Shown in pieces: positions 38,468 through 56,391 of a DNA stretch of 64,000 nt. The translations under genes and the position numbers were made by a program. Source of the stretch: an uncultured Pelagibacteraceae bacterium (GTDB lineage: Bacteria > Pseudomonadota > Alphaproteobacteria > Pelagibacterales > Pelagibacteraceae); the NCBI GenBank assembly GCA_902591535.1, contig CACJBA010000001.1, positions 1 to 64,000 of the forward strand, written 5' to 3'. Within the stretch, counting starts at the first letter, position 1. Each line of letters starts with the position of its first letter. Below the pieces are notes generated by a model. That model did no database searches. It was not told the origin of the DNA and saw only the letters and a list, made by a program, of their open reading frames with translations.

Positions 38468-38935
38468 ATGTTTTTATCTACTTACGAGAACAAATTAGAC
38501 AAAAAAGGGAGAGTGTCTGTGCCCGCTAGTTTCAGATCATATTTATCAAACCTAGGATATAATGGTGTAATTTGTTATCCTTCTTTCAATAATTCTTCGA
38601 TAGAAGCTTGTTCTCAAGATAGAATTGAAAAAATTTCATCCGCAATAGATTCTTTAAATCCTTTTGAAGAAAAAAGAGATTATTTTGCAACATCTATATT
38701 AGCAGAAAGTACAAATTTACAATTTGATAGTGAAGGAAGGATTTCATTATCTTTAAAATTATTAAAACATGCAAAAATAAAAAATAGCATGTTGTTTGTT
38801 GGTCAAGGTCAAACTTTCCAAATATGGGAACCAACAGCGTTTGAAAAATTTAAGACAACAGCAAGAAAAAAAGCAAACTTAAATCGAGCGAGTCTTAAAT
38901 GGGAAAAACATTTAAATAACAATGAGGGGAAATAA
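38468..38935 (+). CDS. mraZ: transcriptional regulator MraZ
   Basis: MraZ is an AbrB-fold DNA-binding protein that usually represses the division and cell-wall operon it heads. The 155-residue protein has the two repeated half-domains. The first begins [18 protein letters not shown]; the second contains [23 protein letters not shown] is the conserved link into the C-terminal helix. TGGG boxes overlap its promoter. Unusually, the next gene is ftsZ, whose ribosome site (GAGGGG) lies in the last mraZ codons. Confidence 0.95.
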
Positions 38936-38936
38936 G

Positions 38937-40424
38937 ATGACAATTAACTTTAAAGCACCAGAGATAAAAGAGTTGCAGCCACGATTACTAGTTTTAGGAG
39001 TAGGTGGAGCAGGCGGAAATGCAATTAATGAAATGATTGAACATAATTTGCAAGGAGTTGAATTTATTGCAGTCAATACAGATGCTCAGGATTTAAAGTT
39101 AAGTAAAGCAAAAACAAGAATTCAAATTGGATTAAATTTAACAAAAGGATTAGGAGCGGGTGCAAAACTTGATATAGGCCAGGCGGCTGCCGATGAATCT
39201 TTAAATGAAATTGTAAATACACTTCAAGGTGCAAATATGGTTTTTATTGCAGCAGGCATGGGTGGTGGAACAGGTACTGGTGCTGCTCACGTCATTGCAA
39301 GAGCTGCTAAAGAATTAAATATATTAACTGTAGGTGTTGTGACTCTTCCATTTTTATATGAAGGCCCCTCTAGGATGAGAAGAGCACAACAAGGTTTGGA
39401 GGAATTAAGAAAGCATGTTGATACTATTATAGTTATTCCAAATCAAAATCTATTTAAAATAGCAAATGAACAAACTACTTTTGAAGAGTCTTTTAATCTA
39501 TCAAATAATGTTTTAATGCATGGTGTTCAAAGTGTTACAGATTTAATGGTAAGACCTGGCATAATTAATTTAGATTTTGCCGATGTTGAAACAGTTATGG
39601 CGTCAATGGGTAAAGCTATGATGGGAACTGGAGAGGCCGAAGGTGAAGGTCGTGCAATGCAAGCTGCAGAAATGGCAATTAATAATCCTTTGATAGATGA
39701 TTATACCTTGAAAGGAGCAAGAGGTCTTTTAGTTAATATAACAGGTGGAAAAGACCTTAAACTTTTTGAAGTTGATGAAGTAGTAAATAAAATAAGATCT
39801 GAAGTAGACTCTGAAGCTGAGGTGATAATTGGTGCAATTACAGACGCTGAACTTGATGGAAAAATTAGAGTTTCAATTGTTGCAACTTCTCTTGATGGTC
39901 AGCAACCTGAGTCAAAATCAGTAGTAAACATGGTTCATAGAATTCATAATCGTAATCCAGGTTACTCAGATTTTTCAAACATTGGATCATCTGCGTCTTT
40001 TAACTTTTCAAATACCACAGCCTCTGCCCCAATCTCACATGGAGCAAATGCTTTAAAGCTTGAAAATGAGATTATTCAAGATCAACAAAATGAAAGCTCC
40101 CATAATCAAATGATGACTGAGGAGACAGTACAAGCTAATAGCACTGAAAGTGAGAGCATTGTTGAGGATAATTCTGTTAATGAAATGGAAAAATCTTTTA
40201 CACAAGAGGCCATTGAGGAAGCACAAGATGAAATTCATCTGGCTGATAGTGAGGAAGAGGTTTCTAATGATTTAAAAGAATTTGGTGTAGATTCTGACTC
40301 ACCAGATTTATTTAGTTCAGAAAATGAGAGTTCAAGTCCTGAAGATTTGCTATCTTCAAATGATGAAGATGAAGATGAGGATGATCTTGAGATACCTGCA
40401 TTCTTAAGAAGACAAAAAAATTAA
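38937..40424 (+). CDS. ftsZ: cell division protein FtsZ
   Basis: FtsZ is the tubulin-like GTPase that forms the division ring. From ATG 38937, after a strong GAGGGGA ribosome site with 6-base spacing, it has 495 residues. It shows V-G-G-A-G-G-N-A near residue 22, the GTP signature G-G-G-T-G-T-G-A near residue 109, and the T7 loop N-L-D-F-A-D-V. A long acidic, Ser/Glu/Asp-rich linker of about 150 residues follows. The C-terminal peptide [11 protein letters not shown] normally binds FtsA. In most proteobacteria ftsZ follows ftsA; here it is second in the cluster, between mraZ and rsmH, and no copy follows the ftsA-like gene. Confidence 0.97.
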
Positions 40425-40442
40425 TGGTCTTCCAAGAAATAA

Positions 40443-41453
40443 ATGGACGCCACCATAGTACCGAAAGTGCAAAAGCATTATCCGGTACTGCTAAAAGAAA
40501 TTATTAGCGTTATTTCCCCTCAACATGGTGGCACATTTATTGATTGTACTTTTGGCCAAGGCGGTTATTCCAAAAAAATTTTAGAATTTAAAAATACAAA
40601 CGTAATTGCTCTTGATAGAGATATAGAGAGTGAAAATATTGCAAATCAATTAAAAGACAATTTTGAAAATAGATTTGTTTTTAAAAATATTAAATTTAGT
40701 CAATTAAATAATTTAAAGCTTAAAAATGAAAACATAAGAGGAATAATTTTTGATCTTGGTTATTCTTACACACAAATAAAAGATCCACAGAAGGGACTAT
40801 CATTTGAATCAGGTGGAGAATTAAATATGCAACTTGGTTTAAATAGTTATTCAGCACAAGATACTATTAATAAACTTGATGAAAAAAAATTAGAAAAGAT
40901 TTTTAAATTTTTTGGTGATGAAAAAGAGGGAAAATATATTGCAAGAAATATTGTAAAAGAAAGATTAAAAAATAAAATCGATACTAAAGCTTTAGTTAAA
41001 ATTATAGACAAAACTAAAAAAAGAAAAAATTTTAAAGTTCATAATGCAACCAAAGTTTTTCAGGCGCTTAGAATATTTGTAAATAAAGAAATAAGTGAGT
41101 TAATTTTTGGGCTTATAAATGCTACTAAAGTTTTAAAAAAAGATGGAGTTTTAGGAGTAGTTACGTTTCATTCGTTAGAGGACAAAATAGTAAAACATTT
41201 TTTTAAAAGTCTTTCTGAAAATAAAAGTATTTCAAGATATAGCCCTGTTACAAAACAAGCTGAGACATTATTTAATTTAAAACAAAAAAAACCTATAATA
41301 CCATCAAATGAGGAGATAAGTGAAAATCCATCATCAAGGTCGGCTAAATTCAGATATGTAATAAAAAAAACTGATTTTTATAATTTTGATACCGACATTC
41401 AAGACCAATTTAGAAATTTAATTGAAATTGAAAATTATGGAGATGAATTGTGA
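40443..41453 (+). CDS. rsmH: 16S rRNA (cytosine(1402)-N4)-methyltransferase
   Basis: RsmH (MraW) methylates C1402 in the 16S rRNA decoding site. The 336-residue protein begins H-Y-P-V-L-L-K-E-I, has the SAM motif [10 protein letters not shown] near residue 36, and D-L-G-Y-S-Y-T-Q-I near residue 104. [11 protein letters not shown] and [13 protein letters not shown] also match. The terminal [10 protein letters not shown] motif is present. It usually follows mraZ directly, but here ftsZ intervenes. It overlaps ftsL by 4 bases (GTGA). Confidence 0.96.
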
Positions 41454-43448: not shown

Positions 43449-46292
43449 ATGCTTCTAGGAAATTATTTTCGTAATATAAATAAAAATTATAAAAATTTTT
43501 CTTTTTCAGGAATTTCATTTGATACAAAGAGTATAAAAAAAAATAATATTTTTTTTGCAATCAAAGGAAATAGTTTTGATGGTAATAAATTTATTCCAGA
43601 AGCAATTAAAAAAGGATCTAAAATTGTTGTAACTGAAAAGAAGAGAAATCATTTCCAAAATGGAATTTTATATATTCATACAAGTAATATAAGAAAATTG
43701 TTAGCTGAAACTGCTTTCAAAATTTATAATAAAAAACCAAAAAATTTGACTGCAGTCACTGGTACAAATGGAAAATCATCAGTTGCAGATTTTTATTATC
43801 AAATATTAAAATTAAATAATAAAAAAGCTGCTTCAATTGGCACATTAGGCGTTAAATCAAAAAGTATTAATTGGAATTTATCCAATACTACAATAGACCC
43901 GATTAAATTAGCTAAAATTTTGAGCAAGTTAAAAAGTCAAAAAATAGAAAATGTTATTATGGAAGCCTCAAGTCATGGTTTGAGGCAAAATAGATTAGAT
44001 GGTTTAAAGTTTAATTCAGGTATATTTACTAATTTATCCCAAGATCATCTTGATTATCATAAAAATTTAAAAAATTACTTAAATGCAAAACTTTATTTAT
44101 TCAAAAATCTAATTCAAAAAAGAGGAAATGTAATTACAGATCAATTAATACCAGAGTTTAAAAACATAAAAAAAATTACAATTAAAAAGAAATTAAAATT
44201 GCATACAATAAATGATGAGAAAAATAATCTGAAGCTTATATCTCAAAATTTCAAAGGAGAGGGTCAAATTCTAAGAGTTAAATTAAATAGTTCAATCAGG
44301 GATATAAATTTAAATTTAATTGGAAAAATACAATTAAAAAATGTTTTGATGGCAATAATTGCAGCAAAATATAGTGGTATTGGTTTAGATAAAATTTTAA
44401 ATACAATTCCAAGATTAAAAACAGTTGAGGGAAGGTTTGAAAAAATTGGTAAAATTAAAAATCAATCTAAAGTAATTCTTGATTATGCTCATACACCTGA
44501 TGCTTTAAAAACGTGTCTTTTAAATCTTAGAGAACAATTTTCCAATAAAACAATTACAGTGCTATTTGGCTGTGGTGGGAATAGAGATCAAAATAAAAGA
44601 TCAAAAATGGGAAAAATAGCTAGTGATTTTGCAGATAGTATCATTCTTACAAATGACAACCCTAGATTTGAAAATCCTCAAAAAATAAGAAGAGATATAA
44701 AAAAAGGAATTAAAAAAAAAAAAATTATCGAAATATCTAATAGAGCAATAGCAATAGCACAAGCTATTCATAATTTGAATTCAGGTGATATTTTGTTAGT
44801 TGCTGGAAAGGGCCATGAGAAAACGCAAGAAATTGGAAATAAGAAAATTTTCTTTTCAGATAGAAAAGTTATTTTAGATGCTATTAAGAATAAAAATAAT
44901 AATTTATCAGATAATTTAAAATTAAATGTGGTTAAAGAGACAGCTAAAATTAAAAAATTATCTACCTCTATTCATTTAAAAACGGCAAGAATTAATTCAC
45001 AAGAAGTTACCAAAAATGATATTTTTTTTGCTATTAAAGGAAAAAAAAATGACGGAAATAAATTTGTAGCACGTTCGTTCAATAGAAAAGCATCGTTAGC
45101 TGTAGTTAACAAAATCCAAAATAAATTAAATAAAAGTCGTCAGATTAAAGTAAAAAATACTTTAAAATTCTTAACAGATATTTCAAAAGCTTTTAGAAAA
45201 AATATTGATACAAATATTATAGCTATTACAGGTAGTTGCGGCAAAACTACACTTAAAGAACTGCTGGGCAATGTATTAAGTAAAATTTCAAAAGTAAGTA
45301 TTTCTCCAAAATCTTATAATAATAAATATGGAGTTCCTTTGAGTCTTTTTAATTTAAAACAAAATGATGAATTTGGAATTTTAGAAGTTGGAATGGATAA
45401 AAAAGGTGAAATTGATTATTTATCAAAAATAATAGAACCAGATGTTGGGGTAATAACAAATATAAATTACGCACATTCTAAAAATTTTAAAAATATAAAG
45501 CAGATCGCTTTGGCAAAATCTGAAATTATTAACAATATAAAACGTTATGGTTATGTTGTATTGAATGCAGATGATAGTTTTTTTCAATTACATAAAAAAA
45601 TTGCCAAAAAAAAGAAAATTAAAGTAGTTTCTTTTGGTATTAAAAGTCAAAAAGCAGATATTAAATTAATTAATATAAAGCCATTTAGAGAAAAATTTAG
45701 AATTAATATTAGATTAAATAATAAAATAAAGTATTTCACATTATCTAACAATTTTGAAAATAATTTATACAATATACTTTCTGCTTTAGCAGTCATTAGT
45801 ATTTATAAAAATATATTTAAACTTAATGAAAATATTTTTCTTAATTTTAAAATACCTGGAGGAAGAGGAGACCATTCTGTAGTTAAAATTGATAATAAGA
45901 AAATTAATTTAATTGATCAAAGTTATAATTCAAATCCTTTGTCATTAAAATCAGCAATTCAAAATTATGATAAAATTAATGCAAAACAATCAAATAAATA
46001 TCTTTTAATTGGAGACATGTTAGAGCTTGGTGCTCATTCTAAAAAACTTCATCAATCTATTGCTCCAATAATAAACCGAACTAATATAGATAAGGTATTT
46101 GTAAAAGGAAAAATGGCTTCAGTAATATTCAAAAATATTTCAAAAGCAAAAAAAGGTAGGATTTTATTAAGCAAATCTCAAATTATTGAATTTATTAGAA
46201 AAGATTTAAATAATTATGATTATTTAATGATCAAAGCCTCACTTGCGACAGGATTCAACGACATAGTGAAAGACCTGAAAGGATTGCATTAA
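43449..46292 (+). CDS. murE-murF: fused MurE-MurF ligase
   Basis: One 947-residue polypeptide holds two successive Mur ligases. Residues 1 to about 482 are MurE, adding meso-diaminopimelate to UDP-MurNAc-L-Ala-D-Glu. It has the ATP site T-G-T-N-G-K-S-S near 102, and D-N-P-R near residue 400 marks DAP specificity. After a short linker, residues from about 500 on are MurF, adding D-Ala-D-Ala. Its ATP site is T-G-S-C-G-K-T-T near 594, and D-Q-S-Y-N-S-N-P lies near 822. The frame is continuous with no internal stop. It abuts mraY without spacer. Fused MurE-MurF enzymes are known in some bacteria, so this is real rather than an assembly artefact. Confidence 0.95.
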   Translation: MLLGNYFRNINKNYKNFSFSGISFDTKSIKKNNIFFAIKGNSFDGNKFIPEAIKKGSKIVVTEKKRNHFQNGILYIHTSNIRKLLAETAFKIYNKKPKNLTAVTGTNGKSSVADFYYQILKLNNKKAASIGTLGVKSKSINWNLSNTTIDPIKLAKILSKLKSQKIENVIMEASSHGLRQNRLDGLKFNSGIFTNLSQDHLDYHKNLKNYLNAKLYLFKNLIQKRGNVITDQLIPEFKNIKKITIKKKLKLHTINDEKNNLKLISQNFKGEGQILRVKLNSSIRDINLNLIGKIQLKNVLMAIIAAKYSGIGLDKILNTIPRLKTVEGRFEKIGKIKNQSKVILDYAHTPDALKTCLLNLREQFSNKTITVLFGCGGNRDQNKRSKMGKIASDFADSIILTNDNPRFENPQKIRRDIKKGIKKKKIIEISNRAIAIAQAIHNLNSGDILLVAGKGHEKTQEIGNKKIFFSDRKVILDAIKNKNNNLSDNLKLNVVKETAKIKKLSTSIHLKTARINSQEVTKNDIFFAIKGKKNDGNKFVARSFNRKASLAVVNKIQNKLNKSRQIKVKNTLKFLTDISKAFRKNIDTNIIAITGSCGKTTLKELLGNVLSKISKVSISPKSYNNKYGVPLSLFNLKQNDEFGILEVGMDKKGEIDYLSKIIEPDVGVITNINYAHSKNFKNIKQIALAKSEIINNIKRYGYVVLNADDSFFQLHKKIAKKKKIKVVSFGIKSQKADIKLINIKPFREKFRINIRLNNKIKYFTLSNNFENNLYNILSALAVISIYKNIFKLNENIFLNFKIPGGRGDHSVVKIDNKKINLIDQSYNSNPLSLKSAIQNYDKINAKQSNKYLLIGDMLELGAHSKKLHQSIAPIINRTNIDKVFVKGKMASVIFKNISKAKKGRILLSKSQIIEFIRKDLNNYDYLMIKASLATGFNDIVKDLKGLH

Positions 46293-53141: not shown

Positions 53142-54056
53142 TTGAAAAAAAAAGTACTTATAATCTCAGGTGGAATCTCAAAAGAGAGATTAATTAGTCT
53201 TGATACAGGATTGCAAGTAGCAAGAGAGTTAAAAAATAATGGGTACAAAGTAAAAATTTCTGAGCCAGATATTAGTTTAGCAAGAAAAATTAAACAGTTT
53301 AAACCTAAAGTAATATTTAATGCTTTGCATGGTCAATTTGGAGAGGATGGGTATATACAAACAATCCTTGAAAGCTTTAAAATTCCCTATACGCACTCTG
53401 GAGTAATTTCATCATCTATAGCAATGGATAAAGAAATTTCAAAAAAAATATTTATAAAAAATAAAATTAACACACCAAAGTTTTTCACTTTCTCATATGA
53501 TTTAAAAAATTCAGATTTGATAAAAAAAATAAATAAAAAATTAAATTTTCCCGTAGTAGTTAAGCCCTTAAACGAAGGATCAAGCGTAAATGTTTATATA
53601 TGCAGTAAAAAAAATATTATTAGAACATTAAATTCATTAAAAAATTATAAAAAAGTAATGATTGAGGAATTTATAGGTGGGAGAGAGATTCAAGTAGCAA
53701 TCATGGGTAATAAAAAACTTGGAGCAATTGAACTAAAGCCAAAAAGAAAATTTTATGACTATCAAGCAAAATATAACTCAAAAGCAAAAACTCAACACAT
53801 TATACCGGTTGATTTAACTAAAAATAAATTAAAAGAAATTTTGGATATTGCTTATAAGGCACATTCAATAATTGGATGTAAAGGTGTAACAAGATCAGAT
53901 TTTAAATTTTACAATGAAAAATTTTATTTGTTGGAAATTAATACTCAACCAGGAATGACTAAGCTATCTCTAGTTCCAGAAATTGCAGCCTATAAAGGTA
54001 TAAAATTTATAGAATTAATAGAATGGATATTAAAAGATGCATCAACGAACAAGTAA
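53142..54056 (+). CDS. ddl: D-alanine-D-alanine ligase
   Basis: Ddl joins two D-alanines with ATP; MurF then attaches the dipeptide. The 304-residue ATP-grasp enzyme starts at TTG 53142, one base after the murB stop. It shows G-G-I-S-K-E-R near residue 9, A-L-H-G-Q-F-G-E-D-G near residue 62, and V-V-K-P-L-N-E-G-S-S-V near residue 138. V-T-R-S-D-F and L-E-I-N-T-Q-P-G-M-T are the metal and substrate motifs. The rare TTG start suggests translation is coupled to murB. It overlaps ftsQ by 20 bases. Confidence 0.95.
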   Translation: MKKKVLIISGGISKERLISLDTGLQVARELKNNGYKVKISEPDISLARKIKQFKPKVIFNALHGQFGEDGYIQTILESFKIPYTHSGVISSSIAMDKEISKKIFIKNKINTPKFFTFSYDLKNSDLIKKINKKLNFPVVVKPLNEGSSVNVYICSKKNIIRTLNSLKNYKKVMIEEFIGGREIQVAIMGNKKLGAIELKPKRKFYDYQAKYNSKAKTQHIIPVDLTKNKLKEILDIAYKAHSIIGCKGVTRSDFKFYNEKFYLLEINTQPGMTKLSLVPEIAAYKGIKFIELIEWILKDASTNK

Positions 54057-54705
54057 AAAAATTATAATCTATTTTTTACTTTTTTTTTCAATAGGTACGG
54101 TCAATAACATAGAATTAAATAATAAAAATTTTTTAAAAATTAAAAAAATTAATATTTTTGGTTTTAACGATATTGAAGTTTTAAATGTTGAAAATGATTT
54201 AAATAATTTAAATTTAAATAATATTGTTTTTTTAAATAAAAATGAAATATCAAAAGTGTTTGATTCTTATAATATAGTTGAAAATTATAATATTTTTAAA
54301 AATTATCCTTCGACATTAAATATTAAAATTAATAAGACTAATTTTTTAGCAAAAATAAATTATGATGGTAAAACTTTTATAGTTGGATCAAATGGTAAAT
54401 TAATAGATGAAAAATATGCAAGAAATTATTTACCATATATTTTTGGAAGTCCTGAAACTGAAGAATTTCTTAAATTTAAAAAAAAGATTGATAAGTCTAA
54501 ATTTTCCTATGAAAAAATTAAAAATTTTTATTTTTATCCTTCAAAAAGGTGGGACATAGAACTTAATAATGAAATTATAATAAAACTATCAGATTTAAAT
54601 GTAATTAACACTTTGAACAATTCATATGAATTTTTGAAAGATGAAAACTTTAGAGATATAAAAATAATTGATGCAAGAATTAAAAATCAAATAATAATTA
54701 AATGA
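54037..54705 (+). CDS. ftsQ: FtsQ-like divisome protein
   Basis: FtsQ is a bitopic membrane protein of the FtsQLB complex. The 222-residue product is short for the family. One hydrophobic helix (I-I-I-Y-F-L-L-F-F-S-I-G) lies near residues 9-20 with almost no cytoplasmic tail. A POTRA-like segment starts I-K-K-I-N-I-F-G-F-N-D-I-E near residue 35, and a beta domain follows with the conserved A-K-I-N-Y-D-G-K-T-F-I-V. Identification rests on order (ddl-ftsQ-ftsA-like) and the POTRA segment. It overlaps the ftsA-like gene by 4 bases (ATGA). Confidence 0.85.
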   Translation: MHQRTSKKIIIYFLLFFSIGTVNNIELNNKNFLKIKKINIFGFNDIEVLNVENDLNNLNLNNIVFLNKNEISKVFDSYNIVENYNIFKNYPSTLNIKINKTNFLAKINYDGKTFIVGSNGKLIDEKYARNYLPYIFGSPETEEFLKFKKKIDKSKFSYEKIKNFYFYPSKRWDIELNNEIIIKLSDLNVINTLNNSYEFLKDENFRDIKIIDARIKNQIIIK

Positions 54706-55406
54706 CTGAAGAATCAGAGATTGATACTTATTTAACTATTTCAAAAAAAAAGTTTGGTATTTATTTATTAGATAAAAAAAAAATGAGCACACTTTATAAA
54801 GAAGAATTAAATTTTGAAGACAGTGTTCAAGATTTAGAATTGAAAAATTTAAATAATTTCCTTGATGAAAATATTTTTAAAGTTGAAAAACTATTGAGAA
54901 AATTCATTAATAATATTTTCGTAGTTATAGATGCTGATAAAATTCTTAATATTAATATGAGTTTAAAAAAAAAAAATTATGATCAAGATATAAATTTAAA
55001 AACTTTAGAAAGTTTGCTTATAGAAGCTAAGGATTTATTTAAAGAAAATAATAAAGATTATAAAATAATGCATATGCTAATAAAAAAATACATAATCGAT
55101 GGAGAAAGTTATTTAAATTTAACAAGTGATTTAAAAACTGATTCCATTTGTTTAGAGGTGAACTTTATATGTATCCCAATAGAATTATCATCAGAGATTA
55201 ATCAAATATTGGATAAATATCACATACAAATAAACAAGTTTTTAAATACTAGTTATATCAATAACCTGTTTTTAGATAAAAAGATTCAAACAGAACATAA
55301 GATTTCTAAGGTTTTGAGTGGTTACAATAAGAATGAAATTATTTTAGTCTCAAAAAGTCCAAATAAAATAGGATTTTTTGAAAAGTTTTTTCAACTATTC
55401 AGCTAA
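54702..55406 (+). CDS. ftsA: reduced FtsA-like protein lacking the ATPase domains
   Basis: This 234-residue protein occupies the ftsA position between ftsQ and lpxC, but normal FtsA has about 410-430 residues. By eye, residues 10-80 resemble domain 1A, with the phosphate-1 loop degraded (L-T-I-S-K-K-K instead of L-D-I-G-T-T-K). Residues 82-160 match domain 1C: a long helix (L-E-S-L-L-I-E-A-K), then Y-K-I-M-H-M-L-I-K-K-Y-I-I-D-G. Residues 165-190 return to 1A. Domains 2A and 2B, with the rest of the ATP site and the FtsZ-binding surface, are missing. The end (N-K-I-G-F-F-E-K-F-F-Q-L-F-S) looks like the membrane-targeting amphipathic helix. The frame is clean and coupled to ftsQ, so it is not a visible pseudogene. 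Confidence 0.72.
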   Translation: MTEESEIDTYLTISKKKFGIYLLDKKKMSTLYKEELNFEDSVQDLELKNLNNFLDENIFKVEKLLRKFINNIFVVIDADKILNINMSLKKKNYDQDINLKTLESLLIEAKDLFKENNKDYKIMHMLIKKYIIDGESYLNLTSDLKTDSICLEVNFICIPIELSSEINQILDKYHIQINKFLNTSYINNLFLDKKIQTEHKISKVLSGYNKNEIILVSKSPNKIGFFEKFFQLFS

Positions 55407-55470: not shown

Positions 55471-56391
55471 GTGTCTTACTTAACTCAAAAAACAATTAAA
55501 GATAATGTTTCGTTTAGCGGAGTTGCCCTTCATAGTGGTTTAGAAGTTAATATATGTATAAAGCCTGGAGAGGTAAATTCTGGAATAATTTTTAAAAGAG
55601 TAGATTTAAAAGATAATAATTTAGTTTTTCCAAATTTTATGAATGTTACTAGTACTTCATTAAACACAACTATTGAAAACGAATTTGGAGTAAAAGTATC
55701 TACGATAGAACACTTGATGGGAGCTTTATTTGGTTTAGGTATAGACAATGCCTTAATTGAAATTGATAATGAAGAAGTTCCAATTTTAGATGGATCAGCA
55801 AAAATTTTTATTGAAAAAATTGTTAAAGCAGGAATTGAAATTAGCAATTCACCTATTAAAATAATTAAAATTAATAAAGAAATTAAATTTTCAGATGGTG
55901 AGAGATTTATATTAATAAAGCCATCAACATTAAGTTTAGATATTGATTTTGAACTTAAGTATAAAAATGAACTTATAGGAAATCAAAGAAATAAAGTTAA
56001 AGTTTATGAAGATGATCTAAAAGATATTTATAATGCAAGAACTTATTGTTTGTATGAGGACATAGAAATGATTAAAAAAAATGGTTTAGCCAAAGGCGGC
56101 AGCTTAGAAAATGCAATTGTTGTTAAAGATAAAGAAGTGTTAAACTCAGATGGATTAAGAAACGAAAAAGAATTTGTGAATCACAAAATACTTGATTGTA
56201 TTGGGGATTTATACACTACTGGATATAGAATTGTTGCTTCAGTAAAATGTTCTCAGGGAGGTCATTATTTAACTAATCAACTTTTAAGAAAAGTTTTTAA
56301 AAATAAAGAAAATTTTTCAATTTTAGAGATAAAAGAAAAAAACCTTCCACATACATTGATAAATAAAACATTCTTAAGATCAATAGCTTAA
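55471..56391 (+). CDS. lpxC: UDP-3-O-acyl-N-acetylglucosamine deacetylase
   Basis: LpxC performs the committed step of lipid A synthesis, so this organism makes lipopolysaccharide. The 306-residue zinc enzyme starts at GTG 55471 after an AAGG site. It shows F-S-G-V-A-L-H-S-G near residue 15. Zinc ligands are in S-T-I-E-H-L-M near residue 77 and H-K-I-L-D-C-I-G-D near residue 235. The catalytic acid region is V-P-I-L-D-G-S-A. In many proteobacteria lpxC follows ftsZ; here it follows the ftsA-like gene with 64 bases between. Confidence 0.97.
   Translation: MSYLTQKTIKDNVSFSGVALHSGLEVNICIKPGEVNSGIIFKRVDLKDNNLVFPNFMNVTSTSLNTTIENEFGVKVSTIEHLMGALFGLGIDNALIEIDNEEVPILDGSAKIFIEKIVKAGIEISNSPIKIIKINKEIKFSDGERFILIKPSTLSLDIDFELKYKNELIGNQRNKVKVYEDDLKDIYNARTYCLYEDIEMIKKNGLAKGGSLENAIVVKDKEVLNSDGLRNEKEFVNHKILDCIGDLYTTGYRIVASVKCSQGGHYLTNQLLRKVFKNKENFSILEIKEKNLPHTLINKTFLRSIA

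Follow-up and report, generated by a model that had tools for sequence, protein, structure and literature searches.

A half-size FtsA in SAR11 bacteria, apparently an orthologue without the second lobe of the actin fold

What is a half-size division protein doing at the ftsA position of a SAR11 genome? FtsA is regarded as the anchor of the Z-ring, a protein that binds ATP and forms filaments, and SAR11 bacteria dominate the surface ocean. The question is raised by the first 64,000 nucleotides of contig CACJBA010000001.1 (assembly GCA_902591535.1), from an uncultured bacterium of the Pelagibacteraceae; this whole stretch is called the window below. The ftsA slot of its division and cell wall (dcw) cluster, ddl-ftsQ-ftsA-lpxC, is occupied by an open reading frame of 234 codons with an ATG start, which we call mini-ftsA (Table 1). 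The protein is FtsA by descent, by position and by the fold of its first lobe, and it is without the second lobe and the ATP loop of the FtsA class. Descent and anatomy taken together make it nearly certain that mini-FtsA is an FtsA orthologue that has lost, by excision, the entire second lobe of the actin fold (subdomains 2A and 2B). The best explanation overall is an orthologue consisting of lobe I alone that acts as a nucleotide-free membrane adaptor, and we put the probability of this at roughly 0.6.

The FtsA signal is weak but specific by sequence, and clear by predicted fold. The protein matches the NCBIfam profile TIGR01174 (ftsA) with E 1.9e-4, residues 47-184 aligning to positions 46-181 of 371. 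Its 20.7 bits are below the equivalog cut-off of 175.85 bits, which is also often missed by the full-length FtsA of the order: only 10 of the 92 genomes surveyed, 91 of them at least 93% complete and the last the window's own at 78.7%, have a match above it. The match to Pfam SHS2_FTSA (PF02491) was under the cut-off as well (E 0.042). A profile of 54 minis searched against the PDB sequences returned FtsA entries exclusively up to E 10 (three of three, best E 0.013). The AlphaFold2 model made from 54 orthologues has a mean predicted local distance difference test score (pLDDT) of 85.1 and a predicted template modelling score (pTM) of 0.81. In a Foldseek comparison with the PDB, its ranks 1-19 were 16 chains named FtsA and three chains of 3wt0 (E 6.8e-12 to 2.4e-7), an entry titled 'Cell Division Protein' with no FtsA in its name, which presumably is the FtsA of S. 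aureus. The same FtsA entries held ranks 1-11 in VIA-align, with Z 12.0-14.6 and 194-204 residues aligned, and GspL, PilM and other non-FtsA entries appeared at Z 10.9 or lower. The aligned ranges of the FtsA chains start at about residue 4-8 and end at 371-392, so that the match takes in both ends of FtsA and passes over its middle. A divergent mini (L115), modelled from 32 sequences (pLDDT 89.9, pTM 0.83), gave FtsA entries at the top in the same ranking (Z 12.2-14.9). In both models subdomain 1C, the SHS2 module, is inserted into 1A at the place that is specific to FtsA; a fold of this kind was what the original prediction had proposed to look for. A library of viral structures had two matches at E < 0.001, with uninformative TM-scores of 0.21-0.26. 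Mini-ftsA sits in the dcw cluster and not among the type II secretion or pilus genes that would accompany a GspL or PilM protein.

The chain of an actin fold runs through 1A, 1C and back to 1A, then through lobe II, and finishes with a helix packed on 1A. The elements of the mini-FtsA model come as three strands, a helix, a strand, the 1C module, a strand, a helix, the closing helix and the tail helix, which as modelled is one complete RNase H-like lobe of the actin fold with 1C as its insert. Lobe II is absent, in model and alignment alike, between Tyr185 and Glu212, where full-length relatives have a block of about 135-155 residues. Since lobe II is lost and the closing helix kept, both ends of mini-FtsA resemble FtsA. 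We compared the junction of one mini (L249) with three full-length genes (L202, L216 and L217). In the closest mini/full pair examined, L249 and L202, identical residues make up 115 of the 234 aligned and the tails are nearly the same throughout (QEVxIVPKKIEKxGFFEKLFHFFK). Small gaps aside, the two differ by the lobe-II block; within this gap the alignment program left a few residues scattered. The C-terminal tail of the window protein is predicted to be an amphipathic membrane-targeting helix: its hydrophobic moment is 0.54, a value equally high in 322 of 10000 shuffles, and F226 and F230 are present in 74 and 75, respectively, of the 75 aligned mini rows (73 distinct sequences, two rows being second copies). 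The original prediction, of a half-size FtsA-like protein with 1A, 1C and an amphipathic tail and without 2A and 2B, thus agrees with what we found, and so does its view that the gene has an internal deletion; a premature stop was rejected, the C-terminal helix and the tail both being present. Only its description of the kept C-terminal piece as the tail was incomplete. The kept piece comprises the tail and also the last helix, a part of 1A in the actin fold.

A lost phosphate loop had been predicted too, and the alignment columns bear this out. Residues 10-17 of the window protein, in the phosphate-1 loop region, are Y-L-T-I-S-K-K-K. Glycine stands at position 14 in 4 of the 75 mini rows as compared to all 32 full-length genes of the genus, and the acid position of the loop, Asp or Glu in 31 of those 32, is mostly F, S, I, Y, N or L in the minis. 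A D/E-x-G motif anywhere in residues 6-22 was found in a single mini row, out of register, as against 34 of 38 full-length genes. Given the decay of the loop and the absence of the opposite half of the ATP cleft, we infer that ATP binding in the FtsA manner has been lost, and ATP-dependent polymerisation is expected to have been lost with the missing lobe. Glu62 and Glu212 are conserved in every one of the 75 mini rows, and Lys63, His124, Tyr185 and the tail phenylalanines in 73-75 of them.

The mini form is widespread and intact in the genus and has signs of purifying selection. Mini and full-length ftsA coexist within this one genus: of its 64 genomes, 41 carry the mini form and 20 a full-length gene of 370-401 codons (370-420 in the order overall), and three are undecided. 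The 41 are made up of 35 genomes with an open frame of 220-245 codons, five in which the gene is cut by the contig end and the sequence runs uninterrupted across the junction, and G012, which has an apparent frameshift. As for the undecided genomes, G273 shows the tail alone, at a contig end, and G134 and G267 had no match with query A2; in G267 a contig-cut frame of 188 codons matches the FtsA profile in lobe II. Eight other genera of the order (28 genomes) have full-length frames of 378-420 codons in 26 cases, and the remaining two (G221, G288) lie at a contig start and are apparently cut. In a wider scan, which took in 201 genomes from the genus that were for the most part less complete, 135 had a match, with the same two size classes plus cut or broken ones. 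Taken singly, G280 and G224 are full-length, G229 is mini and G222, from another genus, is full-length. A sequencing or assembly artefact was rejected, as many genomes that were assembled independently, complete single contigs among them, agree in length and junction. Full-length genes do exist among the relatives, yet the deletion is not local to the window's genome, a possibility raised with the original prediction and rejected by the count of 41 in 64. No description of mini-FtsA was found in the open-access papers searched (most subscription journals lie outside this scope), and none had been known to the original prediction.

Two broken genes were observed in the survey. In the complete genome G012 (L011:1655-1675) mini-ftsA is interrupted by an apparent one-base frameshift at a T7A8 run, which may be a sequencing error, slippage or a real loss. 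In G010 (L018) an ftsA of the full-length type is divided into 185 and 198 codons by a single in-frame TAA close to where lobe II begins.

What could such a protein do? In PMC4281207, strands of 2B are reported to bind FtsZ, deletion of 2B to abolish FtsZ binding and recruitment, and 1C to serve self-interaction and the recruitment of FtsQ and FtsN. A salt bridge between the FtsZ peptide and 2B of T. maritima is described in PMC5256927. FtsA protofilaments are held by a longitudinal IIA-IIB contact and a lateral IC contact, and FtsN binds FtsA between IA and IC, as PilN does in PilM (PMC7613929). The lobe that was cut away carries the filament contact and the FtsZ site besides one half of the ATP site, and the kept lobe is the one that faces the membrane partners. 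We infer that the excision would remove the FtsZ, ATP and longitudinal functions and leave the lateral, partner-binding and membrane ones. Mini-FtsA would then be unable to make the IIA-IIB contact, and the known site for the FtsZ tail on 2B would be lost; the membrane tether of FtsZ may then work differently, as the original prediction proposed. The amphipathic tail would place the protein on the membrane, where the 1A-1C cleft and the surface of 1C may hold the cytoplasmic tails of membrane division proteins, perhaps also a second copy of mini-FtsA. It would in this way be a constitutive, nucleotide-free septal adaptor instead of a switchable FtsZ-binding filament, a role to which we would give an even chance. 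This would make it a natural domain-deletion experiment that separates two jobs of FtsA. More tentatively, and at somewhat less than even odds, much of SAR11 may divide with a natural half-actin, a nucleotide-free FtsA lobe that is freed from FtsZ and links membrane division proteins, the FtsZ tail being held by a protein not yet recognised. If this is true, the ATPase cycle of FtsA and the link between 2B and FtsZ would be dispensable in nature.

With the full-length FtsA of known structure (1E4G/4A2A from T. maritima, 7Q6D from E. coli, 7Q6F/7Q6I from V. maritimus and 3WQT from S. aureus) mini-FtsA shares ancestry, gene position, the lobe I fold, the place of 1C, the closing helix and the amphipathic tail. 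It differs in being without 2A and 2B, the ATP loop, the known FtsZ site and the IIA-IIB contact, at 220-245 as compared to 370-420 codons. Six full-length genomes of the same genus (G280, G171, G253, G007, G078, G041) form a group that we call HTCC1062-like, a label assumed from G280. Their FtsA, 368-378 residues long, has the same neighbours and the same pre-tail motif and tail (QEVxVxPKK...GFFEKLFHFF) as early-branching minis such as L249, but all six retain lobe II and the D-x-G loop. The best structural match outside FtsA, for the window mini and for L115, was the cytoplasmic domain of GspL/EpsL (1YF5, 1W97, 4PHT; Z 10.2-11.5). Like mini-FtsA it has an FtsA/PilM-like fold in reduced form and is part of a membrane-associated protein; unlike mini-FtsA it belongs to type II secretion and aligns over 147-156 residues. 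The GspL domain keeps parts of both lobes, and PilM (2YCH, 5EOU) has both. PilM also differs in belonging to a pilus system and, according to the titles of the PDB entries, in having ATP bound in the solved structures. It resembles the role proposed for mini-FtsA in that a bitopic membrane protein has its cytoplasmic tail bound in the 1A-1C cleft of an FtsA-like fold (PMC7613929). The mode of action of mini-FtsA may thus be nearer to the GspL cytoplasmic domain and to the partner-holding side of PilM.

Several observations, among them the roughness of the substitution rates and the gene trees, both treated in the next paragraph, weigh against an adaptor of this kind with a single origin. An FtsN-type partner for the cleft was not found: SPOR proteins are present in five of eight genomes, in four above the cut-off, and at the two loci that were read (L334, L336) they are RlpA-like lipoproteins beside mltB-like and dacA-like genes (names by reading), not FtsN, so these matches were not used for FtsN as the partner. 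The cytoplasmic stub of FtsQ is, as read from the sequence, about eight residues. Furthermore, the FtsZ peptide is kept letter for letter, which fits continued binding to mini-FtsA equally well. FtsZ was asked for in 30 genomes, of which G237 (mini) and G102 (full-length) had no match; two of the resulting 28 loci (L271 and L280, both mini) were not extracted. The C-terminal peptide [10 protein letters not shown], which two last residues follow, is unchanged in all 26 C-termini read (12 mini, 14 full-length), and the conserved FtsZ tail of the original prediction is thereby confirmed. This conservation is an argument for the chief rival, in which mini-FtsA still anchors FtsZ: the FtsZ tail would be gripped, with no need of ATP or lobe II, by a site newly formed on 1A/1C or at the excision junction. 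The retained membrane tail agrees with it, and so does the lack of a replacement tether in searches with family profiles, which diverged proteins may escape: ZipA was found in none of eight genomes, a weak test with E. coli as the sole positive among 14 controls and absence expected here, and SepF was not convincing in the eight, with one match below the threshold (E 0.08). We nevertheless consider it unlikely that the anchor function was kept, because the known site on 2B is gone and its deletion is reported to abolish FtsZ binding, and because other readers of the FtsZ tail, such as ClpX (PMC5256927), would maintain its conservation. The most conserved positions of the minis give no pointer to a new FtsZ site either, and no FtsZ position that co-varies with the mini and full-length genomes was found at the threshold, in what is a weak test of the 28 loci with L271 and L280 as empty rows.

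It is also conceivable that mini-FtsA is a decaying remnant without function. Its evolution is fast, the window protein being 27-52% identical to the other minis compared, and the frameshift of G012 would be in line with decay, but the frames of 35 of the 41 mini genomes are intact, and invariant glutamates and near-invariant tail residues are not expected of a remnant. The median pairwise dN/dS (ratio of non-synonymous to synonymous substitutions, Nei-Gojobori, pairs chosen by an lpxC dS of 0.05-1.2) is 0.40 for the minis (256 pairs) as compared to 0.44 for full-length ftsA (33 pairs), and 0.42, 0.13 and 0.11 for ftsQ, lpxC and ddl of the mini set, values which are rough with dS near saturation. 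Selection had been marked for a check in the original prediction; dN/dS is not above that of full-length ftsA or ftsQ, suggesting no sign of a pseudogene, and a remnant appears very improbable. Even less probable is a lobe II that comes in trans from MreB or from a small protein of its own, with the two halves rebuilding the actin fold. A single lobe would normally have another as its partner and MreB is present (named by reading), but the ATP loop has decayed and the two models fold well alone (pLDDT 85 and 90). A lobe-II profile built from eight full-length genes found its target in four of four full-length control genomes and nothing convincing elsewhere in the ten mini genomes searched, five of them single contigs; the sole match, in G098, had E 0.07 and stop codons. 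A second full-length FtsA was sought in the window's genome with PF14450, which finds just MreB. Given the incompleteness of that genome, the conclusion that there is no full-length ftsA elsewhere rests on the search of the ten. Independent, convergent losses of lobe II in several lineages would give the same anatomy, and the trees are divided on this. A tree of domain 1 (227 shared columns, 37 minis and 38 full-length genes) has the minis as one clade with support 100/98 and the HTCC1062-like group as a separate one with 94/88, and a quicker tree of all 75 mini rows groups the minis likewise. Tyr185 and Glu212 are spaced by 26 residues in 67 rows, 25 in five and 27 in three. This constant junction, together with the single clade, argues for one excision. 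A tree built on ten further cluster genes (21 genomes) instead puts the HTCC1062-like group inside the mini lineages, and on it a constraint holding the minis together is rejected by the approximately unbiased test (p-AU 0.0006), as it is by ddl alone (p-AU 0.007). Mini monophyly is not rejected by lpxC (p-AU 0.14) or ftsQ (p-AU 0.40), and the CarB tree has yet another arrangement. Without a single mini clade in the ddl and dcw trees, one excision needs allele exchange in addition. Segments of the cluster have indeed recombined: in the full-length genomes G023 and G193 (L201, L244, L313), the mini-clade type is seen in murG, murC and murB and the other type in ftsZ, mraW, ddl, ftsQ, lpxC and ftsA, as well as in ftsI, mraY, murD and ftsW of G023. 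Such exchange can explain the conflict, and we find repeated loss improbable. In our view the mini allele originated once, and ftsA alleles of either form have been passed between close lineages. A regain of the full-length form, considered when a tree of murC, murB, ddl and lpxC placed G023 and G193 inside the minis, was rejected after the single-gene checks had left murG-murC-murB alone as mini-type.

The SAR11 divisome may be reduced in other parts too. Besides the lack of an FtsN-like SPOR protein, ZipA, SepF and FtsX gave nothing above cut-off, all in weak tests. For FtsX (TIGR00439), likewise a family-profile search, none of 11 genomes was above the cut-off, which E. coli alone of 14 controls passes and Caulobacter fails; three of the 11 had weak matches to open frames of 412-837 residues.

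Table 1. Positions of mini-ftsA, its predicted parts and related genes in the window
Feature	Position	Strand	Description
mini-ftsA	54702..55406	+	234 aa, FtsA lobe I alone: 1A, 1C, C-terminal helix and membrane tail
Subdomain 1A, N-terminal part	54702..54938	+	aa 1-79; strands 7-13, 17-24, 29-37, helix 48-65, strand 71-76 (DSSP on the model)
Phosphate-1 loop			about aa 12-17, within 1A; no longer D-x-G-S (alignment column counts)
Subdomain 1C / SHS2	54939..55217	+	about aa 80-172; model, PF02491 E 0.042
Last strand and short helix of 1A ahead of the excision	55218..55274	+	aa 173-191, conserved Tyr185
Excision junction	55266..55289	+	about aa 189-196; full-length relatives hold lobe II here
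Closing helix of 1A at the C-terminal end, with the loop after it	55290..55331	+	aa 197-210, precedes conserved Glu212
Predicted amphipathic membrane-targeting tail	55371..55403	+	aa 224-234, GFFEKFFQLFS; model helix 225-232, low pLDDT
ftsQ	54037..54705	+	POTRA_1 and FtsQ_DivIB_C above Pfam cut-offs; overlaps the mini-ftsA start
lpxC	55471..56391	+	above Pfam cut-off; downstream neighbour of mini-ftsA
ftsZ	38922..40424	+	named by reading; between mraZ and mraW; ends [12 protein letters not shown]

The stop codon of ftsQ and the start codon of mini-ftsA overlap in an ATGA. The order ddl-ftsQ-ftsA-lpxC is common to mini and full-length loci wherever all four genes were detected; ftsQ and lpxC were named by Pfam cut-offs, and ftsZ, mraZ, mraW, ddl, the mur genes and mreB by reading the sequences. 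In the window ftsZ is not adjacent to ftsA but heads the dcw cluster, in the region 38468-41453, 15.8 kb upstream. All 19 of the further regions inspected have it between mraZ and mraW, whether their ftsA is mini or full-length. In the 19 genomes of the genus for which the distance was computed, mini and full-length, ftsZ and ftsA are 15.6-15.8 kb apart, and in G222 from the other genus 14.4 kb. As the distance is alike in mini and full-length genomes, the separation of the two genes probably predates the excision of lobe II. Between them, at 43449-46292, an open reading frame of 947 residues appears, by reading, to have murE and murF fused in a single frame.

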